Positions 3,873-29,323 of a stretch of 39,282 bases of DNA are shown here, piece after piece. A program made the position numbers and the translations under genes. This stretch comes from Streptomyces phytophilus (GTDB lineage Bacteria > Actinomycetota > Actinomycetes > Streptomycetales > Streptomycetaceae), in the NCBI RefSeq assembly GCF_013870535.1, contig NZ_JACBXC010000004.1:1-39282 (forward strand), written 5' to 3'. The notes beneath the pieces are model-generated. The model was not told the DNA's origin, ran no database searches, and saw only the letters and a program-made list of their open reading frames with translations. The first letter of the stretch is position 1. The number at the start of each line of letters is the position of its first letter.

Positions 3873-5123
3873 CTACAGGCGGACGATGATCAGGGCGATG
3901 TCGTCGCGGGCTCCGCCGGCTACGCCGAGGCGGGCGAGCAGGGAGTCGGCGAGGCGTTCGGTGGCGGCGGTGCTGTAGCGGGCGAGTGTGTCTGTCAGCC
4001 GGTGCAGGCCGGCGTCGATGTCTTCGCCGCGTCGCTCGATGAGCCCGTCCGTGTACAGGACGAGCGTGTCGCCGGTGCGGTAGGGCAGGCTGGCGTGGGG
4101 GCGCGGGATGTGCCGGGGGCGTGTGCCCAGCGGGGGGTCGGTGGACTTGTCCAGCAGATCGCAGGTGCCGTCGGGGTGCAGCAGGACCGGCGGGAGGTGG
4201 CCGGCGCTGCTGTAGGTGATCCGGCGGCGTTCGGGGTCGATGACGGCCTTGACGGCGGTGGTGGCCAGCGCCCCTTCGACGGCGTAGGAGTAGAGGTCCA
4301 GGAGATCCAGCGCCTTTCCGGGCTCGCGCAGTGCCCGGACCCCGGCGGACAGTGCGCTGCGCAGCATGCCCATGGTGGCCGCGGCTTGAAGGCCGTGCCC
4401 CACGACGTCGCCGACGGCGACGGCGAAGCCGTTGTCCGGGAGGTCGATCACGTCGTACCAGTCGCCGCACACGTTCAGGGAGCCGGAGGCGGGCAGGTAG
4501 CGCACCGTGATGTGCTGGTGGTGCGCCAGGTCCGGCGAGCGGAGCATGGTCTCCTGCAGGGTCACGGCGACCTGCCGTTCCCTGGCGTGGGCACGGCGCA
4601 GTTCCTCGTTGAGCCGCTGCAGCTCTCGCGCCCGCACGTACAGCTCGGCGTCCATCGCCTCCCGTTCGCCGAGGGCGCGGTCCCGGTCGTCGTTGTCGTC
4701 CGGCTGAGCTGCGCGGGCCAGGATGAACGGGGTCACGTCCTCGACCCGGTGGATGATCCACGCGACCTGTCCGTCCGGCCCGAGGACGGGGGTGTTGATC
4801 GGAGACCACCACCGCTCCTCGAACGTTCCCGGCCGGCCCGGGCGGGGGATGTCGTACTTCGTCAGCGCCATGGTGTCCGGCGTCTTCGTGCGCAGGATCC
4901 GGTGCAGCGAGGCGTCCAGGTCCTGCATCCCGGTGGCGTGCGGGTCCGCCGGATTGCTGGGGAAGGCGTCGAACATGTACTGGCCGATCAGGTCTGCCCG
5001 GGTCCGGCCCGTCGCCTGCAGGTACGCCTCGTTGACATCGACGATCACCAGATCCGGGCCCAGTACCAGGTTCGGATTGGGCGCGGCCATGAACAGCGCT
5101 TTGTAGTCGATCTGCGAGGTCAC
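3873..5123 (-). CDS. PAS domain SpoIIE-type PP2C protein phosphatase (internal start)
   Basis: Taken from the GTG at 5123, this is a 416-residue cytoplasmic serine/threonine phosphatase, the usual size for stand-alone Streptomyces PAS-PP2C proteins. The order is a PAS domain (about residues 5-135, starting YKALFMAAPNPNLVL), a short coiled-coil-like helix rich in Glu/Arg (RARELQRLNEELRRAHARE), then the SpoIIE catalytic domain. Metal-binding aspartates are visible in GDWYDVIDL, AVGDVVGHG, LYTDGLIE and GGARDDIALI. Such proteins typically dephosphorylate anti-anti-sigma factors and so tune stress sigma factors. A GGAAAGG-like site lies about 15 bases before the GTG. The same frame continues upstream into the hydrolase; the internal start is my inference from family length and domain boundary. 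Confidence 0.75.
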   Translation of the reverse strand: MTSQIDYKALFMAAPNPNLVLGPDLVIVDVNEAYLQATGRTRADLIGQYMFDAFPSNPADPHATGMQDLDASLHRILRTKTPDTMALTKYDIPRPGRPGTFEERWWSPINTPVLGPDGQVAWIIHRVEDVTPFILARAAQPDDNDDRDRALGEREAMDAELYVRARELQRLNEELRRAHARERQVAVTLQETMLRSPDLAHHQHITVRYLPASGSLNVCGDWYDVIDLPDNGFAVAVGDVVGHGLQAAATMGMLRSALSAGVRALREPGKALDLLDLYSYAVEGALATTAVKAVIDPERRRITYSSAGHLPPVLLHPDGTCDLLDKSTDPPLGTRPRHIPRPHASLPYRTGDTLVLYTDGLIERRGEDIDAGLHRLTDTLARYSTAATERLADSLLARLGVAGGARDDIALIIVRL

Positions 5124-6959
5124 AGGCCCGTACCAGCCCTTTCCACCCGTAGAGTGCCCGCCAGCCACCTGCCGCCAATCTAGACGGGGCGCGCTGATCG
5201 CTCCCGCCGTGATCCGCCAACCGGACGTGACCGGCGACGCGGCCACCGGCTCCCCGGCACCGGCCGCGACCTGCTGGTGGGAGCCGAGTGGGTCGAGGAT
5301 GGAGCTCCTGGACATCAGAGACCCGGCCGTCGACAACGGCTGTCGGTTCCGGCCCTGGGGGCACACGGCTGCGTCAGCGGGGGGCGTGCCGTCGAGCAGG
5401 TAGGTGTCGACGGCCTTGGTGACGCAGCGGTTGTAGAGGTAGGACCCGTGGCCCTCCTCCTGCGCGGTCAGCAGGACACCGACGTTCTCGCCCAGCTCCC
5501 TGGCCATGCGCTCGGCGCCCACGTACGGCGTCGTCGGGTCACCGGTGCCGGCCACGACGAGGATGGGGGCGGCGCCGTCCGCGCTGACGTCGAGCGTGGC
5601 GCGTTCCCCTTCGAAGGGCCAGTCGTAGCAGAGGTAGACGCCCCCGGACGAGGCCCTGCCGAAGACGGGGGAGGCTGCCTCGATCCGGTCGTTCATTTCC
5701 TCGGTCCGGCCGGATCCGGGACGCACGTTGGAGTCGGCGCAGGTGATTGCGACGTAGGCGGACGTGCCGTTGCCGCCGGAGGCTGTGCCGCCGGCGGCGG
5801 CGCCGGCCCCGGCCCGGGTTCGGGAGCCCGGTGCGTGGTCGTACGCCTCCTCCATCAGTTTGCGGCCGGTGCCCCGCTCCATGACCTCGGTGAGCGCCTT
5901 CGCCAGCGGTCGGCGGCCGTCTTCGCCCCGGTCCAGGTAGTTCGCGATGGCGCGAGCGGCGAGGTCTCCGTCGAGCTTCTCCCCGCCGCCGGTGGGCGCG
6001 GGCGCCCTGTCAAGCCGGTCCAGCAGCGCGACGACCCGCCGACCGGCCTGGGCGGGGACACTCCCGGTGGGGCAGTCGTCGTAGGCGTCCGCACAGTGTT
6101 CGGCGAAGCGGTCGAAGGCACGCTGGACGGCCCTGACCTGGCTGAGTTCCTCTTGCTGGCGGTCCAGGGTCGGGTCGACTGGGGCTTCGAGCACAAGGCG
6201 GCCCACGTTCTCGGGGAAGAGATGGGCGTAGACACCGCCCAGCGCGGTGCCGTAGGAGACACCGAAGAAGTGCAGCTTCTCGTCGCCGAGGAGGTAGCGC
6301 ATCAGGTCCAGGTCGCGGGCCGTGTGCGAGGTGCCGACGTACGGCAGTAGCCGGCCGGAGTGCTTCTCGCAGGCTTCGCTTCCCTCGAACGACTCCTTCC
6401 CGCAGCTGACGGGAGCGGTCCCGCCCACGCCGCGTGGATCGAAGCTGACCAGGTCGTAGCGCTCGCGCAGCGGGGCGTAATCATCGGCGTACCGGGGAAG
6501 TCCCACGACCCCGGACCGGCCGGGACCGCCGAAGTTGAACAGGAGGGATCCGATCCGCTGCTTCTCCGGTCCGGTGGCCCTTTGCCGGATCATCGCGACG
6601 TCGATCGTGTCGCGACCGGGCCGACGGTAGTCCAGCGGGGCCTTCATCGTGGCGCACTCCCAGCCCTCGCCCGGTGCGTCACCGCTTCCCTGCGCCTCGG
6701 ACGGCGGCGGGCAGGCCGACCAGTCGAGCCGCTGGCCGGCGGTGAAGGCCGCGGGAAGCCCGGGCGGCGGGTTCGCAGCCTTGCGCTCGACCCGGCGGCT
6801 CGCTTCACCCCCCTTCGACGACCCGGACGAGTCCGAGCCCTCGACGAGGTCGCACCCGGCCCCCGCGACCACGAAGACGGCGGCGAGCAGAACCGCCGCG
6901 GCCCGCCTCGCTCCGGCGAATCGGGCCGGCCGCCCCGAGATCCAGCCCCGCGTACGCAT
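3873..6959 (-). CDS. Read-through ORF: secreted TAP-like alpha/beta hydrolase joined to PAS-PP2C phosphatase
   Basis: One uninterrupted 1028-codon frame contains two normally separate proteins. Residues 1-36 are a lipoprotein signal with lipobox VAGAGC. Residues ~60-535 are an alpha/beta hydrolase of the Streptomyces tripeptidyl-aminopeptidase type, with nucleophile Ser235 in GVSYGT, Asp474 in GTGDPTTPY and His504 in EEGHGSY. The usual TAP-like C-terminus (CVTKAVDTYLLDG...VCPQ) ends near residue 535, but no stop follows. About 77 low-complexity linker residues lead into a PAS domain and a SpoIIE-type phosphatase (residues 613-1028). A lipoprotein exported with a cytoplasmic signalling phosphatase makes no topological sense. 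I think the hydrolase gene lost its stop codon, by a small deletion or a sequencing error, and the phosphatase is also made from its own start at 5123. Confidence 0.7.
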   Translation of the reverse strand: MRTRGWISGRPARFAGARRAAAVLLAAVFVVAGAGCDLVEGSDSSGSSKGGEASRRVERKAANPPPGLPAAFTAGQRLDWSACPPPSEAQGSGDAPGEGWECATMKAPLDYRRPGRDTIDVAMIRQRATGPEKQRIGSLLFNFGGPGRSGVVGLPRYADDYAPLRERYDLVSFDPRGVGGTAPVSCGKESFEGSEACEKHSGRLLPYVGTSHTARDLDLMRYLLGDEKLHFFGVSYGTALGGVYAHLFPENVGRLVLEAPVDPTLDRQQEELSQVRAVQRAFDRFAEHCADAYDDCPTGSVPAQAGRRVVALLDRLDRAPAPTGGGEKLDGDLAARAIANYLDRGEDGRRPLAKALTEVMERGTGRKLMEEAYDHAPGSRTRAGAGAAAGGTASGGNGTSAYVAITCADSNVRPGSGRTEEMNDRIEAASPVFGRASSGGVYLCYDWPFEGERATLDVSADGAAPILVVAGTGDPTTPYVGAERMARELGENVGVLLTAQEEGHGSYLYNRCVTKAVDTYLLDGTPPADAAVCPQGRNRQPLSTAGSLMSRSSILDPLGSHQQVAAGAGEPVAASPVTSGWRITAGAISAPRLDWRQVAGGHSTGGKGWYGPVTSQIDYKALFMAAPNPNLVLGPDLVIVDVNEAYLQATGRTRADLIGQYMFDAFPSNPADPHATGMQDLDASLHRILRTKTPDTMALTKYDIPRPGRPGTFEERWWSPINTPVLGPDGQVAWIIHRVEDVTPFILARAAQPDDNDDRDRALGEREAMDAELYVRARELQRLNEELRRAHARERQVAVTLQETMLRSPDLAHHQHITVRYLPASGSLNVCGDWYDVIDLPDNGFAVAVGDVVGHGLQAAATMGMLRSALSAGVRALREPGKALDLLDLYSYAVEGALATTAVKAVIDPERRRITYSSAGHLPPVLLHPDGTCDLLDKSTDPPLGTRPRHIPRPHASLPYRTGDTLVLYTDGLIERRGEDIDAGLHRLTDTLARYSTAATERLADSLLARLGVAGGARDDIALIIVRL

Positions 6960-7124
6960 CCGCGACCCCCTGCCCCCGCAACACCATGCCGCACAGGCAG
7001 CAGGATCGGCCCGTCGCCTAGCGGGACCCGGCCACCTCCGCGCTACACTTCCGAGCAGATTGGGCTGATTTGTCCATATCTGCCCTCAAGTCCATCACCG
7101 ACATTACATCCCATAGGGTGCTGA

Positions 7125-8666
7125 ATGACCCTACGTCCTGTAGGGGATAGCTGGATGACCGCCGTGACGCCGAGCATTATCCGGGCAACCCTAGTCCGCC
7201 GAGGAGCAGCGCCGAGTAGCAGGCTCCTCCCGGCGACGGTGGCGGTGACGTTCGCGCTGGCACAGCTGGCCCTCGTACGCCCGGGGATGGGGCTCGGCTG
7301 GGACGAGTCGGTGTACGTCAGCCAGATCAGCGGGCACGCCCCGGCGGCGTTCTTCAGCGCCCCGCGCGCTCGCGGCATCTCGCTGTTGGTGGCGCCGATC
7401 GCGGCCTGGTCGTCGTCGACTCCGCTGCTGCGCGTCTACCTCGCCGTCCTGTCCGGCATCGGGCTGTGGCTGGCCCTGCGCGCCTGGCGGGGTCTGCTCC
7501 CCGCGAAGGTGGTCGCGCTGGGCGGTGCCCTCTTCGCCTCCCTGTGGGTGACGCTCTTCTACGGCCCGCAGGCCATGCCCAACTACTGGGTGGCGATCGG
7601 GGCGCTGGCCGGTGTCGGCTGCTTCCTGCGCGCCCAGGCGGACCGGGCCCGGCGCGCTCCGGTGTGGGGGCTCGCGGCGGCCGGGGCGCTGATGGCGTTG
7701 ATGAGGCCGATGGACGCGGCGTGGGTGGGTCTGCCGCTGCTCTTGGCACCGCTCGTCGTCCGCCAATGGCGGTACGGCCGGCTGCCGGTCGCCCTCGCGG
7801 CGGGGCTCGCGGCCGGTGCGGCCGCATGGGTGATCGAGGCGTACACCGGTTACGGCGGCCTGGGCCGGCGGCTCCACGACGCCTCGCTCATCCAGGGCAG
7901 GCTGAGCTGGAACGTCGCCGTCGACGACCAGATGCGCAGTCAGAACGGGCGCACTCTGTGCCGGCCGTGCACGGGTGGGATGCCGAATCCGGTGGTGTTC
8001 GCCTGGTGGTTCGTCTTTTCCGTGCTGGCCGCGGTCGGGCTCGCGGTGGCGGTCCGGGCACGGCGCGCGGCCGGGGCCGCCGCGTTGCCGCTTGCCTGCG
8101 CGGCGGCGGCCGCGTTCCCGTACCTGTTCCTCATCGGCTATGCCGCTCCCCGGTTCCTGCTGCCGGCGTACGCTCTGCTGGCGATTCCGGCCGCCTACGG
8201 CCTCGTCCTCCTGGTACAGGCAACCCCGAGCCATGCCTGGCGGGCGACTGCGGTGACGCTGGCCGCCGTCGTTCTCGCCGGGCACCTGGTGGTGCAGCTG
8301 ACCGTGCTGCACCAACTCGTCGATCGCACCACCGAAAGCCACCGCGACTGGGCCCGGACCGCCGGCGCGCTGAACCGCGCGGGAGTCCGGCCGCCGTGCG
8401 TGCTCACCGGAGACGAGGCGATCGCACCGCACATCCCGATCGCCTTCAGCGCCGCTTGCTCATCGGCCGACACCGACGGCCACAACGGCAACACCACTGC
8501 GGCGGCGCTGGCTCGTGAGGCGGGCCGGATCCCGGTAGCGGTGCTCACGACCCGTACGGCGCCGCCGGCCTTCGCCCGGGACTGGCGGCTGATCCACGTC
8601 CACCGGCAGATCTACGCGTACGTCGGCCCGGCGGTCCAGAGGTTGAGCAGGGCCGGGAGCGCTTGA
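7125..8666 (+). CDS. GT-C-like polytopic membrane protein (putative glycosyltransferase)
   Basis: A 513-residue protein with about ten hydrophobic helices and a soluble C-terminal tail of ~130 residues. In the first extracytoplasmic loop, just after helix 1, it has GLGWDESVYVSQ. An acidic pair at this position is the hallmark of GT-C fold enzymes (GT39/GT83-like), which take sugars from polyprenyl phosphates. A long loop with LCRPCTGGMPNP lies mid-protein. Acceptor and sugar are unknown, and it may be an uncharacterised relative rather than an active mannosyltransferase. Two starts are plausible: ATG 7125 (AGGG six bases before) and ATG 7155 (AGGGG eight bases before); the second would shorten the N-terminus by ten residues. 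It is divergent from the hydrolase gene across 165 bases and is transcribed alone. Confidence 0.65.
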   Translation: MTLRPVGDSWMTAVTPSIIRATLVRRGAAPSSRLLPATVAVTFALAQLALVRPGMGLGWDESVYVSQISGHAPAAFFSAPRARGISLLVAPIAAWSSSTPLLRVYLAVLSGIGLWLALRAWRGLLPAKVVALGGALFASLWVTLFYGPQAMPNYWVAIGALAGVGCFLRAQADRARRAPVWGLAAAGALMALMRPMDAAWVGLPLLLAPLVVRQWRYGRLPVALAAGLAAGAAAWVIEAYTGYGGLGRRLHDASLIQGRLSWNVAVDDQMRSQNGRTLCRPCTGGMPNPVVFAWWFVFSVLAAVGLAVAVRARRAAGAAALPLACAAAAAFPYLFLIGYAAPRFLLPAYALLAIPAAYGLVLLVQATPSHAWRATAVTLAAVVLAGHLVVQLTVLHQLVDRTTESHRDWARTAGALNRAGVRPPCVLTGDEAIAPHIPIAFSAACSSADTDGHNGNTTAAALAREAGRIPVAVLTTRTAPPAFARDWRLIHVHRQIYAYVGPAVQRLSRAGSA

Positions 8667-8838
8667 TCGAGCGGACGGGCAGGGGGCGATGAGCACCATG
8701 CTGATGCCGCCGGGGGTGCCGGCCTCCGGTGGCGGCCTGCGCAGTCGCGCTCCGTTCCGCGACGTCTGATGCGCCGCAGCGGGAGCCGTGTCCGGCCGCC
8801 GCCGGGCAGGCGGCCCAAATGGTCTTTGACCGGGCACG

Positions 8839-8868
8839 CTGGCCCCTCCGCGGGGCCGGAGGGGCCAG
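8839..8868. terminator. Intrinsic terminator between convergent genes
   Basis: A perfect 12-bp stem, CTGGCCCCTCCG with CGGAGGGGCCAG, and a six-base loop. It lies 30 bases beyond the stop of the minus-strand beta-propeller gene and about 170 bases after the membrane protein, so it can serve both. Confidence 0.75.
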
Positions 8869-8897
8869 GTGGCGGTGTTTGCTCGGGCGGCGGCGGT

Positions 8898-11333
8898 CTA
8901 CCGGGTGTGCTTGTTCGTGGTTGGGGCGTTGGTGAGTTCCATCGTGCCCGTGGTCTTCAGCGGCGCGCCGCTGCCGTCCGCTGGGGCGGCGGTCAGTTCC
9001 CAGGTGTAAGTGCCGTCGTTGGCGTAGCGGCCGTTGCCGGTTCGGCCGTCCCAGGAGAAGGCGACGGCGGCGGCGTGTTCGTCGGCGGGGGCGGTGAATA
9101 CCGTACGGCCGGATTCGTTGCGGATCGTCACCTGGCTGTCGGTGGCCGGCTTGGAGAGTTGCCAGTCGGCGTCCCACCTGGGGTCGGCCGGCGACGCCAG
9201 GTTCACCGACTGCTCGACGCGCGCCTCGATCTCCGTCACCGGGGCAGTGGCGACACCCGGGTCGACGACGGTGATCCGGGCGTCGTCCTCCTTGGCGTAG
9301 GCGAGGGTGCCGCCGAAGCGGTCGGTCTCCACGAGGGGGCCGCTGTACCGGGACGCGAAGCTCTCGACGACGTACGGGTTCCCCCCGATCGGGGTGAGGA
9401 GGAGGCGGAGGCGTTCGCGTTGGTACGCGAGCACGTAGCCGTCGCCGAGGATGCCCCGCGGGGTGTACGTCGTCCGCCGGGTCTGCGTGTCGTAGACGCC
9501 GTGGCCGGAGTCGGTGATCCCCCGGGGGTCGCAGTCCCAGTACACCCAGTGCCCCACGGCCTGCATCTCCCTGGGCGCACAGCCGTTGTGGGTGAACGGC
9601 TCCGTCTCCGCCACCTCGCCGGTCTTCAGGTCGACCGCCTGGAGCGTGCCCTCCGTGACCCCGGGCATCCACAGCTCGGTGCCCCACACCGCGAGCCCGC
9701 CCAGGCCCCGGTGGACGCGGATCACCTCCGGTCCGCCGGAGGCGTCCAGGTCGACGACGTACTGCCGGTCGTCCGTGCCGCTCCCGCTCCCGCCGAACAC
9801 CACGTAGCGGCCGGAGGCCGAGCGGACCACCGAGTAGTGATCGGAGCCGGTCGGCATCTTCTCGCCGGTCTCCGGGTCCACGGCCGGTACGACCGTCCGT
9901 GTGCCGTCCGGCGCCAGCACGACCAATACCTGGTCGCCGTTCGCGTCGAGGGTGGCGACGGCGGTACGGCCGTCGCCGGTGCCGACCGGGCGCCGGTTCT
10001 GGTAGACGCGCTGCTCCGTGTAGCCGGTGGCCTGCGCGTCCGGGCGGGCGAGCAGAGACCGCTCGCCCACCGACGGGATCGCGCCGATGTCCCGCTGGTA
10101 GAGAGCAGGCAGGTACGTGGCGTCGTTCTCGGCCGTGACGAGCTGTCCGGCCGTGAGCGACAGGTTGGTGAGATCGGCCTGCTTGGGCGCCACCGCACGC
10201 ACCGCCCGCGGCGCGGGCGCCCCGTCGTCGCCGATGTGGACGCGGTGTACGGCCCAGTCCCGGGACGAGGTGCCGCCGGTGACGGCAACGCCGCCGCCCG
10301 GGACCTGCGCCATCCGCCAGCGGGCGTGCTCCAGCAGCCTCTCCGGCTCACCGCCGCCGATCGGCCGGGCCGTGAGGGGCGCGCCCTCGCGGACGCGGAG
10401 GTCGTCCGCGTGCTGCTTGAACTCACGCGTGGTCAGCAGCCAGTCGCCGACGAGCCCGAGGTGCGGGGTGCCCTCGTCGTCCGGGCCGAGTTCGATCTCG
10501 GTGGCGGCCGCTTGCGGGGTGGCGCGGGGCAGTACGCGGGCCGCGGTGTTGCCGCCTTCGGGCGCGTACCAGGCGATGTGCGTGTCCGAGAACACGAGTT
10601 CGGCGTTCGCGCCGGTCGCGCCCGGCAGCACCGGGACGACCTCGGCGGTCGCCAGGTCCAGCAGCCCGACGCCGCGGGTGCCGTCGGGGTGCGCGTACCA
10701 GATCGCGACCGTGCGGTCGTCGCCGCCGAGCGTCATGCCGTCTTCCGCGACCCAGCCGTTGAGGCCGGTGACCGGGGTGTCGACGAGCTGCCCGTCCGCC
10801 ATGCGCAGGACGTGCAGGACGCTGCGCCTGCCATCCGCGTCCTTGGTGGCGGTGAGCACCGTGGAGCCGAAGACGCCCCGGTAGAAGTGGCCTGCCGGCA
10901 GCGTGTACGTGGTGGTGGTGCCGGACTCCATGTCCTTCACCTGCACCTTGCTCGGGAAGCTGTAGATCGCGACGGCGTTCCCGCTGGTGACGGAGATGTG
11001 GTCGCTTCCGTCGATCGGGTTGGAGTCATCGCTCGGGCGCGAGGCGGGCAGGTCGACCGGCGTACCGTCGTCCGGGACCCACCGGTAGTAGCTGAGCGCG
11101 CTCGCGTCCGCGACCTCCGTGCGCTCCACGACGCCGCCGGGCCCGGCCCCGTACAGCGGATTGGCGACCGGCGCGAAGCGGTCGGGCGCCGGGATCGTCA
11201 CCGGGACGGGTTCGGCATGGGCGGCGGTCATGAGCGACGGCAGGGTTCCGCCGGCGGCCGCCAGGGCCACCGCGGTGGCGAGTCCAGCTCGCACGATCGA
11301 TCGTCTTCTGTTCGGCTTGCGGCGTGCGGCCAC
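8898..11333 (-). CDS. Secreted beta-propeller protein with FlgD-like Ig domain
   Basis: An 811-residue exported protein. It begins with an Arg-rich n-region (RRKPNRRRS), a hydrophobic core and a cleavage region near AAHAEP, typical of a Sec or Tat signal peptide. The body is a long run of repeated short beta-strand segments with GD/DG turns (VVFGGSGSG, LHVLRMADGQLV, VYDTQTRRTTYTPRG) that looks like a WD/PQQ-type propeller. The last ~80 residues contain FSWDGRTGNGRYANDGTYTWEL, the signature of the FlgD Ig-like domain also found at the end of many Streptomyces secreted proteins. No catalytic motif is evident; a surface-binding or scaffold role is a guess. GTG 11333 is preferred because GGAGGTG sits five bases before it and the signal peptide starts there. 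Confidence 0.75.
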   Translation of the reverse strand: MAARRKPNRRRSIVRAGLATAVALAAAGGTLPSLMTAAHAEPVPVTIPAPDRFAPVANPLYGAGPGGVVERTEVADASALSYYRWVPDDGTPVDLPASRPSDDSNPIDGSDHISVTSGNAVAIYSFPSKVQVKDMESGTTTTYTLPAGHFYRGVFGSTVLTATKDADGRRSVLHVLRMADGQLVDTPVTGLNGWVAEDGMTLGGDDRTVAIWYAHPDGTRGVGLLDLATAEVVPVLPGATGANAELVFSDTHIAWYAPEGGNTAARVLPRATPQAAATEIELGPDDEGTPHLGLVGDWLLTTREFKQHADDLRVREGAPLTARPIGGGEPERLLEHARWRMAQVPGGGVAVTGGTSSRDWAVHRVHIGDDGAPAPRAVRAVAPKQADLTNLSLTAGQLVTAENDATYLPALYQRDIGAIPSVGERSLLARPDAQATGYTEQRVYQNRRPVGTGDGRTAVATLDANGDQVLVVLAPDGTRTVVPAVDPETGEKMPTGSDHYSVVRSASGRYVVFGGSGSGTDDRQYVVDLDASGGPEVIRVHRGLGGLAVWGTELWMPGVTEGTLQAVDLKTGEVAETEPFTHNGCAPREMQAVGHWVYWDCDPRGITDSGHGVYDTQTRRTTYTPRGILGDGYVLAYQRERLRLLLTPIGGNPYVVESFASRYSGPLVETDRFGGTLAYAKEDDARITVVDPGVATAPVTEIEARVEQSVNLASPADPRWDADWQLSKPATDSQVTIRNESGRTVFTAPADEHAAAVAFSWDGRTGNGRYANDGTYTWELTAAPADGSGAPLKTTGTMELTNAPTTNKHTR

Positions 11334-18835: not shown

Positions 18836-19918
18836 TCCGAAGCGGAGGACGGTCCGCGTTCCCGGGCAGCTGCTGGCCGAGCCGCCCGGCCTGGACCGCG
18901 AGACTGGGCGGCGGCCGACCCGGACCGCTTCACCGTCCCGGACCAGCGCCTCACCCGGTTCAGGGCCGCGGGCCTGACCATCAACGAACGGCCCGCCGAG
19001 CCCGCCAGCCAGGATGTGCGTGCTCAGCACTCCCGCGGCCTCGCAGGAGTGCTGAGCGCCTACAGGGCCAGGCCGTAGCCCGGTCACTCCCACGGACCAT
19101 GGGAACGTTCGGGAACCCTGCCGGCCACCACCCCGGAAGGGGGCACTTGCCATCGTAGAACGCTCAGCCCGCGCCGAGCCGCTCCGCGAGACCGCAGCGT
19201 GTCCCCACCGCCTGCGCAGCACCAGGACTCCGTCCGGGCGGGACAATCTGCCCCGGACACTGGCGAGTACCGCGAAGGCCCTGGAGGACGCAGCAGGAGT
19301 TTCGCCGGACCGACGCGGCTTCGTCATCGCCTCACTGGGCACGCTCACCGCCGCCCACTGGCCGCCACCACCGAAGCCGCCGCCATGCAGTGCCCATCGA
19401 GGGGTTGCTGGACCGCGCCATGGAGCACCTCCTCACGCTGATCGCCGACACGATCGAAGGCGTGTCAGCCTGGGAGTAGCGCCTTTGCCGCCGCCCTTGA
19501 TATCGGCGACGCCGAGGGCGGCCGGCCCGGGACAGCAAATGGAGGGATCCGGCCTGGGCGCTGGCACGCCCGCGAGACATGTCGCCAAGCACTACACCAT
19601 CTGGGCATCGCATCTGTCGGCCGCCGGAAAGCACGCCGCGTTCTGCGGCGGCGAGGGGCGTGGGTGAGCACCGGCCACGCCTGGATCGTGGGATGCGGGG
19701 CGGCCCCTGCGGGCAGGGCGAGCAACTCAACGGCGCGCCATGGCGGTACGGAGCCCGAGGCGGAGGGCAGGCGCAATGGCAAGGCCCGGCGCTCCTTGGC
19801 GAGGATGAAGAGGTCCCAGACGGCGAGCGGATCGAAGCGGGCGGAGGAGTCGGCCCAACTGCCGTGTTCGCCGGATGCCGGAACGCCTCGTGTGAGCGGA
19901 GGAGCGACGGGGCACCTG
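18836..19918. other. Gene graveyard between glpK and epimerase remnants
   Basis: No intact gene. Plus-strand scraps include DWAAADPDRFTVPDQRLTRF running to a stop at 19076-19078, and VPIEGLLDRAMEHLLTLIAD ending in a stop at 19477. Around 19690-19890 the minus strand reads FDPLAVWDLFILAKERRALP and continues open for about 50 codons. These have coding-like composition but no start, no consistent frame and no family I can name. Serial deletions in a once gene-rich stretch explain this best. Confidence 0.4.
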
Positions 19919-20568
19919 ATGTGCATGCGTGTCGCGATTACCGGGGCGAGCCGGACCATCGGTTCCGTCGTCGTGCAAGGTCTGCGTGTCAAGGACGCCT
20001 ACGGCCTCGCGGCTCGGGGCCTTCAGCTGCCCCACGACCCCGCCTGCCTCACCGAACTCGGAATCGGCGGTATCAGCCGGGTGATCGCCGGGCAGGGTGG
20101 CGCCGGCCTGCTCCCCGCTCCGGTACGCAGTGCCCGCCCTCGTACTCAGCGGGGCGCTCGGCCCGCTGCCGGCCCTGCTGAGGAACCGAGGGCTGACTAC
20201 CGCCACGGTTCACCCGACGATGTCGCCGTGGCGCTCCGCCGGCGCGTGGCGGATCCCTTCCATCTCACCGCCGATACGCCTGTGAGCGCGGCGGTCATCG
20301 CGGACGCGCTCGGTGCCAGGCCGGTGCACGTGCCCTTTGCGGCGGTACGCGCCGTCATGCCGGCTGCCTGGCATGCGCGCCTGCAGCAGCTCGGCACCGG
20401 GTGGCCGGGCATGGCCTTCGGGACGGCCCGGACGCGCCTGCCGGGGTGGTCGGGGGCATGAGGGAGGCCGCGTCCGGCGGGGCGCCCGTGTGGCAGCCGC
20501 GCACCGGGCTTGGCGCGCTTGGCGACGCCACCCACCGTGGTCCGGTGGCGGTGCGGCGGCTCCCGTGA
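19919..20568 (+). pseudogene. NAD(P)-dependent epimerase/SDR pseudogene
   Basis: The 5' end encodes a Rossmann start, MRVAITGASRTIGSVVVQGL, as in extended SDR sugar epimerases. The next ~75 codons do not resemble the family. C-terminal epimerase sequence then resumes with VADPFHLTADTPVSAAVIAD and AAWHARLQQLGTGWPGMAF. The last part, MREAASGGAPVW, is typical of the extreme C-terminus of Streptomyces epimerases but lies in another frame (20459-20568). An internal deletion plus at least one frameshift make it non-functional. Its final stop overlaps the GTG of the UbiA gene (GTGA), so the UbiA gene may once have been translationally coupled to it. Confidence 0.65.
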
Positions 20569-21398
20569 CCACCGATTCCGCTCAGGCGCGCCCCGGACCG
20601 TCGCCCGTGCTTGCGCTGCTCGCCGCAGCCCACGGCGGGCCCGCCCTGGCGGTCACCGCCGTCACGGCCCTGCTCGCGGTCCGCGCGGACCTGCAGCCGC
20701 TCGACGCCGTCGTCGTCACCGGGGCGGTGTTCACCGGTCAGTTGACGATCGGCTGGGGCAACGACCTGCGCGATCTCTCTCGCGACCGTGTCGTCGGCCG
20801 CACCGACAAGCCGCTGGCCACCGGCGCCCTCCCGGTCGGCTGGGCGGTGCGTGCCGTGGCCACCGCCGCGCTCGCGTGTCTCGTACTGTCCGTGCTCTGC
20901 GGCTGGCGCAGTGCGCTGGTCAACGTCGTCCTCGGCACCGGTGCGGGCCACGTCTACAACCTCGGGCTCAAGGCCACCTCGTGGTCCTGGGTACCGTACG
21001 TCAGTGGCTTCGGGACGCTCCCGTCGATCGTCGCCCTCGCCGGCCCCACCCCGGTCTGGGCACCGCTGTGGATGACCGGTGCCGGGGCCGCGCTCGGCGT
21101 CGGGGCGCATCTGCTCAACGCCCTGCCCGACCTCGCCGACGACGCACGCACCGGCGTCCGCAGCCTGCCCCACCGGCTCGGCGGACGGCGCTCGCGCGTC
21201 CTGGCCGCGGTGCTGCTGCCGGCAGCCTCGCTGCTCGCCGTGCTCGGTCCCGCCGGTACCCCCTCGTGGTGGGCAGGGGCGTCCCTCGCACCGGTGGTCG
21301 TCCTCGCGGTGTTCACGCTGGCCGCCCGGGGGCGCACCCCCTTCCGGGCCGCGTTGGCCATCGCCCTGCTCGACGTCGTGCTGCTCGTGGCCGGCTGA
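20565..21398 (+). CDS. UbiA family prenyltransferase
   Basis: A 277-residue integral membrane prenyltransferase expected to attach an isoprenoid chain to an aromatic acceptor using Mg2+ and a prenyl diphosphate. The first Asp-rich motif is NDLRDLSRDRVVGRTDKPLA, matching NxxxDxxxD. The second is LPDLADDARTG (DxxxD). About eight hydrophobic helices surround these loops. GTG 20565 starts right before the helix-bearing region and overlaps the stop of the epimerase remnant. The gene is the first of four consecutive plus-strand genes with a type III PKS, an ICMT-like methyltransferase and a FAD oxidoreductase. The PKS product is the obvious candidate acceptor, which is inference. Menaquinone-type roles are less likely in this context. 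Confidence 0.88.
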   Translation: MTTDSAQARPGPSPVLALLAAAHGGPALAVTAVTALLAVRADLQPLDAVVVTGAVFTGQLTIGWGNDLRDLSRDRVVGRTDKPLATGALPVGWAVRAVATAALACLVLSVLCGWRSALVNVVLGTGAGHVYNLGLKATSWSWVPYVSGFGTLPSIVALAGPTPVWAPLWMTGAGAALGVGAHLLNALPDLADDARTGVRSLPHRLGGRRSRVLAAVLLPAASLLAVLGPAGTPSWWAGASLAPVVVLAVFTLAARGRTPFRAALAIALLDVVLLVAG

Positions 21399-21493
21399 TG
21401 GCGTCAGCACCCGCTCACCCGCACCGTCGCGCTCGGCCTCGGCCGGGCGCTTGTCGTACCCACTCGTCCGATCGGCCCGACCCGGGAGCCAGC

Positions 21494-22582
21494 ATGACCA
21501 TACGCGTCCTCAGCGTGCACGGCGTCCTGCCCGAGCACCGCTACCGGCAGGAGGAGATCACCGAGTCATTCGCCACCGCGCTGGCCGAGGGCACGCTCGA
21601 TCGCCGCGTCGTCGAGCGGCTGCACCGCAACGCGTGCGTCGAGAGCCGGCACACCGTGCTCCCGCTGGAGGAGTACGCCCGGCTCGGGGACTTCGGCCGG
21701 TCGAACGACGTCTTCATCCGGGCCGGCGTCGAACTCGGCAGTCGCGCGGTGGTCGAAGCGCTCAAGGACGTCGGCCTCACGTCGGCCGACGTCGACTACA
21801 TCGTGTCGTGCACGGTGACCGGCCTGGCCGTTCCCTCGCTCGAAGCCCGCGTCGCGGCGGAGATCGGGCTGCGCCCCGACGTGGTGCGCCTGCCCCTCGT
21901 CGGCCTTGGCTGCGTCGCCGGCGCGGCCGGCATCGCCCGCCTGCGCGACCTGCTGCGCAGCGACCCGGACGGGGTCGCGGTGCTGATGTCGGTCGAACTG
22001 TGTTCGCTCACCCTTCAGCGTGACGACACCTCGTTCGCCAACCTCGTGGCAAGCGGTCTGTTCGGGGACGGTGCCGCGGCGGTGGTCGCCGTCGGCCCCG
22101 AACACCCGCTTGCGCAGTCCGACGACCCCGCCCGCCCCGAGGTGCTCGCCTCGCGCAGCCGTCTCTACCCCGAATCGGAGCGCGCGATGGGCTGGGACAT
22201 CGGTGCCGGCGGCTTCCGGATCGTGCTCGACTCCTCGGTCCCCGACCTGGTGCGCCGGTACGTCGGCGAAGACGTCCGCGGCTTCCTCGCCGACCACGGA
22301 CTGACCGGCGAGGACCTCGGCTGGTACGTCGCACACCCCGGCGGCCCCAAGGTCCTGGAGGCCCTGCAGGAAGCCCTCGGCGTCGAGCGGGACGCCCTGA
22401 GGCTGACCTGGGACTCGCTGCGCCGGATCGGCAACCTGTCCTCCGCCTCGGTGCTGCACGTCCTGGCGGACACGCTCGCCCACCGCCCGCCCCCGCCCGG
22501 ATCCCACGGGCTCATGCTTGCCATGGGCCCCGGCTTCTGCTCTGAACTCGTCCTCCTGCGCGCCCCCGGGGGTGAGAGGTGA
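21494..22582 (+). CDS. Type III polyketide synthase (srsA-like)
   Basis: A 362-residue chalcone synthase-superfamily enzyme that would extend an acyl-CoA with malonyl-type units to a resorcinol, pyrone or related product. The catalytic triad is complete: Cys140 in LGLGCVAGAAG context, His281 in WYVAHPGGPK and Asn314 in RRIGNLSSAS. Length is normal. ATG 21494 has GGGAG eight bases upstream and matches the usual N-terminus; an in-frame ATG at 21398 overlaps the UbiA stop (TGATG) and would add 32 disordered residues. The downstream methyltransferase overlaps by four bases. The PKS, ICMT-like and flavoprotein order is that of S. griseus srsABC, which makes alkylresorcinol-derived methoxyquinone lipids. 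Starter unit and chain length cannot be read from sequence. Confidence 0.92.
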   Translation: MTIRVLSVHGVLPEHRYRQEEITESFATALAEGTLDRRVVERLHRNACVESRHTVLPLEEYARLGDFGRSNDVFIRAGVELGSRAVVEALKDVGLTSADVDYIVSCTVTGLAVPSLEARVAAEIGLRPDVVRLPLVGLGCVAGAAGIARLRDLLRSDPDGVAVLMSVELCSLTLQRDDTSFANLVASGLFGDGAAAVVAVGPEHPLAQSDDPARPEVLASRSRLYPESERAMGWDIGAGGFRIVLDSSVPDLVRRYVGEDVRGFLADHGLTGEDLGWYVAHPGGPKVLEALQEALGVERDALRLTWDSLRRIGNLSSASVLHVLADTLAHRPPPPGSHGLMLAMGPGFCSELVLLRAPGGER

Positions 22583-23097
22583 GCGGCGAGGTCCTGTTCA
22601 CCGCCCTGGTCCTGGCCGTCGGCCTGGAGCGGGTCGCCGAACTTGTCGTCTCCCAGCGCAACGCCGCTTGGAGCATCGCGCGGGGCGGCGTGGAGTCCGG
22701 GCGAGGCCACTACCCGTTCATGGTGGTGCTGCACACGGGCCTGCTTGCCGGCGCGCTCGTGGAGGTGTGGGTGCGGCGGCCGGACACCGCACCGGTCCTC
22801 GCCTGGGCCATGCTCCTGCTCGTCGCGGCCTCACAGGCGCTGCGCTGGTGGTGCATTGCCACCCTGGGCCGGCAGTGGAACACCCGGGTGATCGTTGTGC
22901 CCGGCAGTCCGCGCGTGACCGGCGGCCCCTACCGCTGGTTCTCGCACCCGAATTACGTCGCCGTCGTCGTCGAGGGCCTCGCGCTGCCGCTGGTGCACTC
23001 GGCCTGGATCACGGCAGTCGTCTTCACCATGCTGAACGGGTTCCTGCTCACCACCCGCATGCGCGTCGAGGACGCCGCCCTGGCACGGCTGGCCTGA
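22579..23097 (+). CDS. Isoprenylcysteine carboxyl methyltransferase-like enzyme (srsB-like)
   Basis: A 172-residue membrane methyltransferase of the ICMT/PEMT type. Four or five hydrophobic helices precede the SAM-binding signature VTGGPYRWFSHPNYVAVVVE, and a Glu near the C-terminus (RVEDAAL) matches the family. Bacteria with this operon do not prenylate cysteine; in the srs pathway the equivalent enzyme O-methylates an alkylresorcinol in the membrane. I infer the same here. The GTG start overlaps the PKS stop (GTGA), which implies tight coupling of synthesis and methylation. The next gene begins 10 bases after the stop. Confidence 0.88.
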   Translation: MSGEVLFTALVLAVGLERVAELVVSQRNAAWSIARGGVESGRGHYPFMVVLHTGLLAGALVEVWVRRPDTAPVLAWAMLLLVAASQALRWWCIATLGRQWNTRVIVVPGSPRVTGGPYRWFSHPNYVAVVVEGLALPLVHSAWITAVVFTMLNGFLLTTRMRVEDAALARLA

Positions 23098-23107
23098 GGA
23101 GGCGCGC

Positions 23108-24136
23108 ATGGACCTGCTCATCGCCGGCGCCGGACCCGCGGGTCTCGCCACGGCCGTGCACGCGGCCCGGGCGGGGCTCGACGTCGCCGTCTGGGAGCAG
23201 CGCGCCGGCACCGTCGACAAGGCGTGCGGCGAAGGGCTGATGCCGGGTGCCGTCGCCGCCCTGGCGGCGCTCGGCGTACACCCGCCGGGGCACGACCTGC
23301 GGGGCATCCGGTACGTCGCCGGACCGCACCGGGTCGACGCAGACTTCCGGGCGGGCCCGGGCCGCGGGGTGCGCCGCACCGCGCTGCACACGGCGCTGCG
23401 CGAGGCGGCGCTGGACGCGGGCGTGCGGGTCGAGCAGCGCACGGTGCGCCGTGTCGAGCAGGACGACGACGGTGTCGTGGTCGACGGGACCCGCACCGGC
23501 CACCTCGCCGCTGCCGACGGCCTGCACTCTCCGATCCGCCGAGCCCTGGGCCTGCACCGGCCTCACCGGGCCCGCCTGAGGCACGGGCTGCGGCGTCACT
23601 ACAGGCTCGCCCCCTGGAGCGACTACGTCGAGGTGCACTGGGCCCGTGACGCGGAGGTCTATGTGACGCCGGTGGCCGACGACCTCGTAAGCGTCGCGGT
23701 GCTCACCACCGCCCGCAGACCGTACGACGACCACCTTGCCGCCTTCCCCGCGTTGCTGGAGCGGCTGGCCGGAGTCGGCACCGCCGGGCCGGTGCGCGGG
23801 GCGGGCCCGCTCCGCCAGGATGCGAGCGCGCGCACGGCCGGCCGGGTGCTGCTCGTCGGCGATGCGGCCGGCTACGTGGACGCGCTGACCGGCGAGGGCA
23901 TCGCGCTGGCGCTCGCCCAGGCGTCGGCGGCGGTGCGAGCAGTCGTGAGCGGCGACCTGATGGCCTACGAACGGGAGTGGTGGCGAATCACCCGGCGATA
24001 TCGCTGGCTGACCCGGGCGCTGCTCGGCGCGACGAGGATGCCCCCGGTCCGGGCAGCACTGGTGCCCGCGGCGCGGCGGCTGCCGTGGTTGTTCGCCGCG
24101 ACCGTCGACGCGCTCGCGCATCCGGCACGGACGTGA
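23108..24136 (+). CDS. FAD-dependent oxidoreductase/hydroxylase (srsC-like, GGR family fold)
   Basis: A 342-residue flavoprotein. The N-terminal GAGPAGLATAVHAARAGLDV and Glu in WEQRAG bind FAD. KACGEGLMPGAVAAL and the late GDAAGYVDALTGEGIALAL are typical of the geranylgeranyl reductase-like branch of the PHBH fold. In the srs operon the corresponding protein hydroxylates the methylated alkylresorcinol, giving a hydroquinone that oxidises to a quinone. With a UbiA enzyme in this operon, reduction of a prenyl chain is an alternative. The C-terminus (RRYRWLTRALLG) is amphipathic and may associate with the membrane. AGGAGGC precedes ATG 23108. It is the last gene of the operon; hairpins follow. 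Confidence 0.85.
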   Translation: MDLLIAGAGPAGLATAVHAARAGLDVAVWEQRAGTVDKACGEGLMPGAVAALAALGVHPPGHDLRGIRYVAGPHRVDADFRAGPGRGVRRTALHTALREAALDAGVRVEQRTVRRVEQDDDGVVVDGTRTGHLAAADGLHSPIRRALGLHRPHRARLRHGLRRHYRLAPWSDYVEVHWARDAEVYVTPVADDLVSVAVLTTARRPYDDHLAAFPALLERLAGVGTAGPVRGAGPLRQDASARTAGRVLLVGDAAGYVDALTGEGIALALAQASAAVRAVVSGDLMAYEREWWRITRRYRWLTRALLGATRMPPVRAALVPAARRLPWLFAATVDALAHPART

Positions 24137-24561: not shown

Positions 24562-26580
<2,019 letters not shown>

Positions 26581-27143: not shown

Positions 27144-28634
27144 CTACCGCGTAGGCGCCGCAAGCTCGCGAACCGTCGCCATGTCGCTGAACGGGAGCAA
27201 CCGCTCGCCGACGATCTGGTACGGCTCGCTGCCCTTCCCCGCGATCAGGACGATGTCGTGCCGGTCGGCGACGGCCAGAGCGCGGGAGATCGCCCGGCGG
27301 CGGTCAGCGACGCGTTCGAACGGTGTGCCGGTCGCCGTGAGGCCCGGAGTGATCTCGTCCATGATCATCTCGGGGTCCTCGCCGCGGGGGTTGTCCGAGG
27401 TGAGGACGCACAGGTCGGAGAGGCGTCCTGCGATCTCCCCCATCCGGGCGCGCTTGGTGTTGTCCCGGTCCCCGCCGCAGCCGAAGACGGTGATGACCTG
27501 GGCGGGGGCGAAACCCCTGATGGTGGTCAGGACCTTGTCCAGGGAGTCGGGGGAGTGGGCGTAGTCCACGATCACGGATGTGCCGCTCGGGGTCTCGAAG
27601 CGTTCGAAGCGCCCGGGGATGGGGGGCATCTGTTCGAGGGCCGCGACCAGCCCTTCGAGGTCATGCCCGAGCAGGTGGCAGGTCGCGAGGGTGGCCAGGG
27701 CGTTGGCGACCGAGAACCGGCCGGGCAGGGGGATCATCGCGGGATACTTCTGATCGGCGTGGTGGAGGGTGAAATGCGTGCCGAGGGCGTCCATGGTGAG
27801 GTCGGTCGCCCAGTAGTCCGCCTCCGCGTCAAGAGCGTACGTGGACACCGCACCGGGCATCATCGCGGGGATTCGCGTACCCACCGGGTCGTCGGCATTG
27901 ACCACCGCGCGTCGGCACAGGCCCTGGAACAGCCGCAGTTTGGCGTCCCGGTAGTTCTCCATCGTGCCGTGGTCGTCCAGGTGATCCTGCGTCAGGTTGG
28001 TGAAGACGCCAACATCGATGAACGAGTGGTCCACCCGGTTGGTCAGCAGGCCCATCGACGTGGCCTCCAGAACCACGCTGCCGACTCCGCGGTCGCGCAT
28101 GCATCCCAGCAGATACTGGAAGTCCGGGGACTCCGGCGTGGTCAGCGCCGACCTCGGCATGGGGATCAACTCGTCGCCGATCCGGCTGCCGGCCGTCCCG
28201 ATCACTCCGACCCTGGCGCCCTCGGCGATTCGCAGCATGGACTCGACCATGTACGACACCGATGTCTTTCCGTTGGTGCCGGTGACGGCCACCATGTCCA
28301 TCTGCCGCCCGGGCTCGCCGTAGTAGCGAGAGGAGGTGATGGCGGCGGCCATGCGTGTGTCCGGCACGCGGACGAGGCAGACTCCCCCGGCCGGCACCCG
28401 GACCGATCGGGGCAGGTCCGATGTCCCGCCATCGACGAGCATCGCCACCGCACCACGAGCGAGCGCCGGTCCGACGGACTCGGGGCCGCCCCCGCGGTGG
28501 CCGGGCACGGCGATGAACAACGACCCCGGAGACACCCGGTGGGCGTCGATGGACGTGCCCGCGGTGATCTCTGTCTCCGGATCGCCCTGAAGTACCTCGT
28601 AGTCGTGCCCGGCCAGCAACTCACTCAACTTCAC
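27144..28634 (-). CDS. murE: UDP-N-acetylmuramoyl-tripeptide synthetase (MurE), orphan copy
   Basis: A 496-residue cytoplasmic Mur ligase that should add diaminopimelate to UDP-MurNAc-L-Ala-D-Glu with ATP. The N-terminal domain starts KLSELLAGHDYEVLQGDPET. The P-loop GTNGKTS is at residues 119-125. The mid-domain ATSMGLLTNRVDH contains the usual Glu/His metal region. The C-terminal specificity motif DNPRGEDPE starts at residue 414; DNPR marks diaminopimelate rather than lysine as substrate. All domains are complete. It is not next to murF, mraY or other cell-wall genes, so it is a second, accessory copy or a repurposed amide ligase. GTG 28634 is preferred since GAAAGGG lies five bases upstream and the fold starts there. 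Confidence 0.85.
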   Translation of the reverse strand: MKLSELLAGHDYEVLQGDPETEITAGTSIDAHRVSPGSLFIAVPGHRGGGPESVGPALARGAVAMLVDGGTSDLPRSVRVPAGGVCLVRVPDTRMAAAITSSRYYGEPGRQMDMVAVTGTNGKTSVSYMVESMLRIAEGARVGVIGTAGSRIGDELIPMPRSALTTPESPDFQYLLGCMRDRGVGSVVLEATSMGLLTNRVDHSFIDVGVFTNLTQDHLDDHGTMENYRDAKLRLFQGLCRRAVVNADDPVGTRIPAMMPGAVSTYALDAEADYWATDLTMDALGTHFTLHHADQKYPAMIPLPGRFSVANALATLATCHLLGHDLEGLVAALEQMPPIPGRFERFETPSGTSVIVDYAHSPDSLDKVLTTIRGFAPAQVITVFGCGGDRDNTKRARMGEIAGRLSDLCVLTSDNPRGEDPEMIMDEITPGLTATGTPFERVADRRRAISRALAVADRHDIVLIAGKGSEPYQIVGERLLPFSDMATVRELAAPTR

Positions 28635-29323
28635 AGGGGCCCTTTCAGGGGTGTGGCTAGGCCGTTCGTCCGGCTGTTGCCGAGAGATGGGCGTCGACGG
28701 TGGCACGCCGAAGCCCGGGGGGGTGTGGAACGGGTGGTGCGGCAGGCGCGGCAGGTGCGGCGGACCCAAGCGGTCAGGAATGTGCGCGTCGAGCCGGACG
28801 CCACAGGTCAGCTCGGGAGGATGGTCCTACGGTGCTCTCGGTGCGGGAGCAGGGCAGTCCGCGCGGAAAGAAGGTCCACGGAGCGGAGAACAGTGGGGGA
28901 AGCCCGGTGGGCGTCGCTAGCCGTGGCCGTACAACGCCCGGCAGACGGCGTTCGGCTCCTCGGTGTGGGCCACGGTCGCGGGACAAAGGGCGCACATACG
29001 GGGAGTCTGCCGAAGGCACTCCCTCACGACACGTGTACAACCCATGCGCCAAGTGTACGTGCAAGCGGATGCTCCGAGGATCCCCCGGGCCGATCGTTCA
29101 TCCCCGCACACCAGCGAAGAAGCCTCGGCTCGCCGTTCGTGCACGTCGGAGTTCAGGGCCGGGATCGTCGCGCTGTGCCGGCGTGGCGACCGCTCGGTTG
29201 GCCAGGTTCGCCGGGGACTTCGATCCGATACTGCGCCCGCCGCACCGGCGAACCCGGTCCGTGGCTGCCCGAATCGCCACCCGCTCACGAAGACCAGGGC
29301 CCCCACCACCGGCCACGCGTCGC
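28635..29323. other. Intergenic region between murE and iclR
   Basis: About 690 bases with no gene I can support. Minus-strand frames from 29309 and 29064 have Arg/Pro-rich translations with no family resemblance. It must contain the murE promoter. A short palindrome ACACGTGT lies near 29030, with a GTGTACGTG echo 25 bases later, of unknown meaning. Confidence 0.4.

Follow-up and report, generated by a model that had tools for sequence, protein, structure and literature searches.

UbiA-family prenyltransferase genes as regular companions of srs/pkq-type phenolic lipid operons, with a probable lipid-prenylating form in Streptomyces phytophilus

We analyzed by computation a four-gene operon in a 39,282-nucleotide stretch of DNA from Streptomyces phytophilus (contig NZ_JACBXC010000004.1 of assembly GCF_013870535.1, positions 1 to 39,282), hereafter called the window. 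The operon encodes a UbiA-family membrane prenyltransferase followed by a type III polyketide synthase (PKS), an ICMT-family methyltransferase, and a flavoprotein, the last three corresponding to the srsABC/pkqABC genes for long-chain phenolic lipids. It is likely that this operon makes an srs/pkq-like phenolic lipid, which is subsequently prenylated, and we found that, among the loci examined, a UbiA gene regularly accompanies operons of this type.

The linkage was determined by scanning genomes with an alignment of the UbiA protein, which yielded at least 585 relatives; the best 80 loci were kept and are the basis of all counts out of 80 given here. The quartet was complete in 66 of them and occurred in three arrangements: the order and direction seen in the window (24 loci, 14 of which have a reductase gene inserted), a divergently oriented UbiA gene (39 loci), and the UbiA gene in last position (3 loci). 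Across these 66 quartets, the window ICMT protein was 53 to 79% identical to its counterpart. The 14 incomplete loci consisted of one with UbiA, ICMT, and flavoprotein genes at a contig end (L062), one with UbiA and flavoprotein genes (L097), and 12 with UbiA alone. Besides, 392 genomes of the same genus, drawn from a larger group, were searched with the PKS of locus L116, which comes from a strain bearing the name Streptomyces griseus subsp. griseus. Of the 30 best srsA-like loci thus obtained, 29 have the UbiA gene adjoining the PKS gene, always divergently. In the exception (L261 in genome G018), the PKS and UbiA genes are situated at the starts of two different contigs. When both queries were applied to 37 same-genus genomes, the UbiA gene was detected in all 16 genomes with an srsA-type PKS (E value of 1e-115 or better) and in none of the other 21. 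Because of the 66 full quartets, the adjacency in the same genus, and this co-occurrence, the UbiA gene is no oddity of the window, and the locus itself is an ordinary one among many. A first-pass annotation of this DNA had proposed the UbiA gene as an unusual extension of an srs-like operon. Its presence is beyond dispute, but its unusualness is not sustained: the gene is a usual neighbor, and a precedent is described in Actinoplanes missouriensis, whose UbiA-like enzyme AgqD (printed AqgD) O-prenylates an alkyl-methoxyhydroquinone (PMC3227686).

Several points nevertheless weigh against prenylation as a step of this pathway. The other three genes are missing near the UbiA gene in the 12 loci mentioned above, 8 of which are flanked by the full 7 kb on either side, and one genome with an intermediate PKS (G035; E value of 5.8e-87) has no such UbiA gene. 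Furthermore, only a PKS, a methyltransferase, and a hydroxylase are given for the pathway of S. griseus, and the spore quinones of Streptomyces sp. MNU77 are given as alkyl quinones, with no word beginning with "prenyl-" in the accessible text of that source (PMC9927152). The UbiA gene could accordingly be a mere neighbor that belongs to another pathway, in which case the operon would make an unprenylated methoxyquinone exactly as srs/pkq operons do. Such a reading agrees with the same source, where the trio alone is described as quinone making, and with the 12 UbiA relatives that have no trio gene in the examined stretch. We regard it as unlikely, however, since the linkage holds across bacterial orders and in three arrangements, co-occurrence was complete in the 37 same-genus genomes, and the UbiA gene of the window is packed co-directionally with the trio.

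The four genes (Table 1) form one tight block on the + strand at positions 20565-24136. A gap of 95 bp separates the UbiA and PKS genes, the PKS and ICMT genes overlap by 4 bp (GTGA), and a 10-bp gap precedes the flavoprotein gene; this spacing suggests that the four genes are co-transcribed. All Pfam matches of the four proteins were above the respective cut-offs. The open reading frames and Pfam matches agree with the first-pass annotation in its description of an srs-like trio headed by UbiA, and its statement that the PKS catalytic residues and both Asp motifs of UbiA are intact was likewise correct.

Table 1. Genes of the putative prenylated-lipid operon in the window
Gene product	Position	Strand	Characteristics
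UbiA-family membrane prenyltransferase	20565..21398	+	GTG start, 277 amino acids; Pfam UbiA, 73.2 bits
Type III polyketide synthase, SrsA/Pks11 type	21494..22582	+	362 amino acids; Chal_sti_synt_N/C, 75.3 and 56.8 bits
ICMT-family methyltransferase, SrsB-like	22579..23097	+	172 amino acids; Pfam ICMT, 93.5 bits
FAD monooxygenase-like flavoprotein, SrsC-like	23108..24136	+	342 amino acids; Pfam FAD_binding_3, 53.3 bits

The PKS contains Cys140, His281, and Asn314, a triad that was identical in all 96 aligned PKSs including that of the window, together with Trp234. Its best solved relative is Pks11 (390 bits); with the PKS of L116 it shares 59% identity. Trp234 aligns with a Trp of Pks11, and its equation with Trp230/281 of other enzymes rests on this alignment. 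This Trp is described as needed for resorcinol products (PMC5916927), and a link between Trp and resorcinol formation is also drawn in PMC9927152. Among the 96 aligned PKSs, position 234 is occupied by Trp in 74 and by Phe in 22, 20 of the latter being from Nocardioides, and it may be that chain folding differs in this Phe-for-Trp clade.

The window has the gene content of srs/pkq-type operons, that is, a PKS of the SrsA/Pks11 type with ICMT and FAD genes directly downstream on the same strand. The genes srsA, srsB, and srsC are reported to encode a PKS, an ICMT methyltransferase, and a monooxygenase (PMC6669644), the third being termed either a monooxygenase or a hydroxylase (PMC6669644, PMC8086630). 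In Streptomyces sp. MNU77, the same three-gene arrangement is presented as a pkqABC-type polyketide-quinone operon, the spores were found by liquid chromatography-mass spectrometry to contain alkyl quinones with chains of C14 to C19, and the PKS rescued a mycobacterial mutant (PMC9927152). Alkyl methoxy-quinones are the products reported for srsABC/pkqABC-type operons in the sources cited here.

The UbiA protein has two Asp-rich motifs, NDLRDLSRD at residues 66-74 (NDxxDxxxD) and DLADD at residues 189-193 (DxxxD), whose Asp and Asn residues did not vary in two alignments, one of 14 and one of 19 rows. An AlphaFold2 model of the protein had a mean pLDDT (predicted local distance difference test) of 92.3, and its best structural matches (first 8 rows) were solved UbiA homologues with Z scores of 20.7 to 22.4. 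The two Asp-rich motifs and the predicted all-helical fold place the protein in the UbiA superfamily.

We also considered whether this protein is the menaquinone or heme O enzyme of the genome, and this candidate was rejected. The operon UbiA reached no cut-off of any NCBIfam family, those of MqnP, MenA, and CtaB included, the best score being 40.6 bits versus a cut-off of 269. Two further UbiA-family genes were found elsewhere in the assembly (6.9 Mb, 1772 contigs, 82% complete), one scoring 383.7 bits as CtaB (cut-off, 246) and the other 448.9 bits as MqnP (cut-off, 420), and the operon UbiA is thus not the primary enzyme. Grouping with menaquinone or heme enzymes, which the first-pass annotation had named as the outcome that would count against its proposal, did not occur by family score. 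A UbiA tree of 58 rows was also constructed with the window protein, the two primary enzymes of the same genome, and 55 of 109 extracted UbiAs; the genome's own CtaB and MqnP have very long branches in it, so that the exact placement of both is impossible.

On the gene content, motifs, families, distribution, and ancestry observed here, we base the following route, every step of which we infer, the fourth with the most reserve. Starting from a fatty acyl-CoA, the PKS would add units of malonyl- or methylmalonyl-CoA and fold the chain into an alkylresorcinol or alkylresorcylic acid, the ring of which would be O-methylated by the ICMT-type enzyme. The flavoprotein would then hydroxylate the ring to a methoxyhydroquinone, oxidizing to the quinone. 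Finally, the membrane-bound UbiA enzyme would attach a short prenyl group, supplied as the diphosphate, to the phenolic lipid, most likely at a hydroxyl group by analogy with AgqD. Because the separate reductase gene of relatives is missing in the window, the prenyl chain is expected to be unsaturated, and would stay so unless it is reduced by an enzyme encoded elsewhere.

The ring itself is a second conceivable acceptor. UbiA enzymes of the menaquinone pathway are C-prenyltransferases, and C-prenylation by the operon UbiA would give a redox quinone with alkyl and isoprenoid tails that could serve as an alternative respiratory electron carrier. Such a product would suit the proposal that the polyketide quinones made by such operons carry electrons in mycobacteria and in the spores of Streptomyces (PMC9927152). 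On the other hand, the ring position is unreadable from sequence, and AgqD, the sole described relative of this pathway type that we found, is reported to be an O-prenyltransferase (PMC3227686). Among open-licence papers in PMC, we met with this precedent for O-prenylation and with no corresponding one for C-prenylation in pathways of this type, and no report of an assay of a UbiA from any srs-type locus was found in the same collection. We judge C-prenylation to be improbable; as it shares the first three steps and a prenylation with the preferred route, the odds of the two overlap.

As for the flavoprotein, the first-pass annotation had likened it to geranylgeranyl reductases and had suggested a possibly chain-reduced product. 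It has the motifs GAGPAG (at residue 7), DGLHS (at 137), and GDAAG (at 251), as well as a CGEG motif as in the geranylgeranyl-reductase superfamily. Its score for GG-red-SF (TIGR02032) was 115 bits, below the cut-off of 158.8. The motif YxWxF..NVG, which we take to be typical of geranylgeranyl reductases and which in an alignment was common to the solved reductase 3oz2 and an extra gene of locus L044, was looked for in the window flavoprotein and was absent. By fold, the matches were led by halogenases (Z scores of 38.1 to 33.2), with 3nix, a flavoprotein of no assigned function (35.7), and squalene epoxidase (32.6) also high. Lower scores were given by two reductases, 3oz2 (32.3) and 4opi (30.6), as well as by p-nitrophenol monooxygenase (32.0) and p-hydroxybenzoate hydroxylase (about 31). 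The reductases are only 6 Z units under the top halogenase match, and the fold comparison alone gives no decision between a hydroxylase and a reductase.

Beside the quartet, an additional gene of the geranylgeranyl-reductase family was present in 15 of the 80 loci, all from Nocardioides; it lies between the UbiA and PKS genes in 14 of them and just upstream of the PKS gene in L064. YxWxF..NVG was present in all 15 additional genes, and the only copy scored, that of L044 (positions 7816-9021, 401 amino acids), reached 178.4 bits and exceeded the cut-off of 158.8. The nearest relative of the window locus, L183, also has a reductase-family gene between UbiA and PKS (at about 6259-7347). Such a gene stands on the other side of UbiA in L176, L177, L184, and L185, that of L176 giving no match to the motif pattern, and none was seen in L178, which belongs to the same group as L183. 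A search for a separate reductase gene gave no match above 60 bits in the window, where the UbiA/PKS gap is only 95 bp; the rest of the genome was not searched.

The additional gene of the Nocardioides loci and L183 is likely to provide a chain-reduction step. It separates chain reduction from ring hydroxylation, two functions that the first-pass annotation had merged in the flavoprotein. A flavoprotein acting as the prenyl reductase, with a chain-reduced prenylated quinone as the operon product, is in our estimation highly improbable. Kinship with the geranylgeranyl-reductase superfamily, as seen in the 115-bit score, the CGEG and GDAAG motifs, and the Z score of 32.3 to 3oz2, speaks for it, but we rejected this function on the score below the family cut-off, the absent motif, and the coexistence of the flavoprotein gene with a separate reductase-like gene in the 15 loci and L183. 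Besides, its top fold matches are halogenases, and the flavoprotein corresponds to the third gene of srsABC, the monooxygenase or hydroxylase mentioned above. The most fitting role for the window flavoprotein is that of the trio's hydroxylase.

Phylogenetic analysis placed the window copy apart from other Streptomyces. A tree was computed by a quick method from concatenated PKS, ICMT, and flavoprotein sequences, its 47 rows being those of the window plus 46 of the 84 loci with all three genes. The window paired in it with L183 (support, 98) next to Nocardioides, and the Streptomyces rows stood elsewhere. The same pairing with L183 was recovered in the UbiA tree (support, 96). A topology in which the window was constrained with 18 rows of Streptomycetaceae and Streptosporangiaceae, a group chosen after the tree had been seen, was rejected by the approximately unbiased test (p-AU of 1.8e-140). 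The contig itself looks like Streptomyces, because a Mur ligase gene about 3 kb downstream of the operon (positions 27144-28769, - strand) has 81% DNA identity to genes on four Streptomyces plasmids, which are annotated as UDP-N-acetylmuramoyl-L-alanyl-D-glutamate--2,6-diaminopimelate ligase. The trees group the window copy with Nocardioidaceae-like loci, and it is thus likely that the operon was acquired horizontally; alternatively, the contig may be a chimera of the 1772-contig draft. A plasmid collection searched with the UbiA sequence gave one matching Streptomyces record, which carries no annotation.

As for the surroundings of the operon, the Mur ligase gene may be an accessory copy that is mobile. 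A frame immediately upstream of the operon, at 19664-20461 (+ strand), had no Pfam match; by eye, a short stretch of it looks like the beginning of an NAD(P)-binding protein, and the frame may be a decayed gene. Directly after the operon, the window encodes a family 9 cellulase with a CBM_3 domain (24586-26580, + strand), which had no match in the 80 loci. More distantly, a frame of 1028 amino acids at 3873-6959 (- strand) combines a lipoprotein-like TAP-type hydrolase (Abhydrolase_1/Abhydrolase_4) with PAS and SpoIIE phosphatase domains. This is odd in that exported and cytoplasmic parts are joined, and the frame may be a true fusion or may have lost a stop codon. When seven flanking proteins were compared with the 80 loci, a major facilitator superfamily transporter had distant matches in five loci and an aquaporin in one, and the other five proteins had none.

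The useful point of these results is the pattern of a UbiA gene beside the trio in most of the loci examined. Should UbiA prenylate the quinone, both the final product and the physiological role ascribed to such operons would have to be revised. A more far-reaching idea, which we consider rather doubtful at present, is that the srs/pkq pathways as published are one step short. Wherever it is retained, the conserved UbiA would prenylate the quinone, and the fifth gene of Nocardioides and L183 would reduce the chain; the product would be a dual-tailed membrane quinone, or else a hydroquinone masked as an ether, by which the respiratory carrier is stored or switched off. The window would then be the four-gene form of this system, received from a Nocardioidaceae-like donor.

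Among known systems, the agq cluster of A. missouriensis, whose products are alkyl-O-dihydrogeranyl-methoxyhydroquinones, is like the window in that a type III PKS and further genes, among them one for a UbiA-type prenyltransferase, are described as serving one lipid (PMC3227686, PMC10896814, PMC7692728). We compared agq by description only and used los-type loci as its proxy. The los locus is described as containing UbiA, methyltransferase, acyl-CoA dehydrogenase, and PKS genes near RadA and DisA (PMC7587189). In L034 and L289-L291, from several genomes, a UbiA gene, a class I methyltransferase gene, and a distant type III PKS gene were observed beside a gene that by eye is RadA-like. The UbiAs of los-type loci are 45 to 49% identical to that of the window and form one group (8 rows; Shimodaira-Hasegawa-like approximate likelihood ratio test [SH-aLRT], 94) nested among the quartet UbiAs. 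In contrast, the PKSs of these loci are only 31 to 37% identical to the window PKS, and Methyltransf_11 (L034 and L289) and an acyl-CoA dehydrogenase (L034) are found there versus the ICMT enzyme and FAD monooxygenase of the window. An assignment of the window to the agq type was dropped, as the PKS, methyltransferase, and oxidase families of the los-type proxies differ. As judged through these proxy loci, the window appears to have lipid enzymes of the srs type together with a UbiA like those of los-type loci and is probably not a los/agq member.

The closest likeness in the trio is to srsABC/pkqABC, including sco7669-7671 (PMC4573997), where PKS, ICMT-type methyltransferase, and flavoprotein genes are given in the order of the window. 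These systems as published in those sources have three genes, whereas the window operon is led by an additional UbiA gene. Even the 29 same-genus srsA-like loci differ from the window in their UbiA gene, which is divergent, unlike the co-directional gene at the operon head in the window. A quartet like that of the window is listed under consecutive gene numbers in Gephyromycinifex aptenodytis NJES-13 (UbiA, stilbene synthase, ICMT, and FAD oxygenase); its region is stated to have 100% similarity to the alkylresorcinol cluster of S. griseus, and the authors assign the quartet to an angucycline pathway, the available text reporting no prenylated lipid (PMC8779670). The five-gene form of Nocardioides (UbiA, geranylgeranyl reductase, PKS, ICMT, and FAD genes) differs from the window by its separate geranylgeranyl-reductase-family gene, but its order and direction are those of the window, as is also the case for L183.

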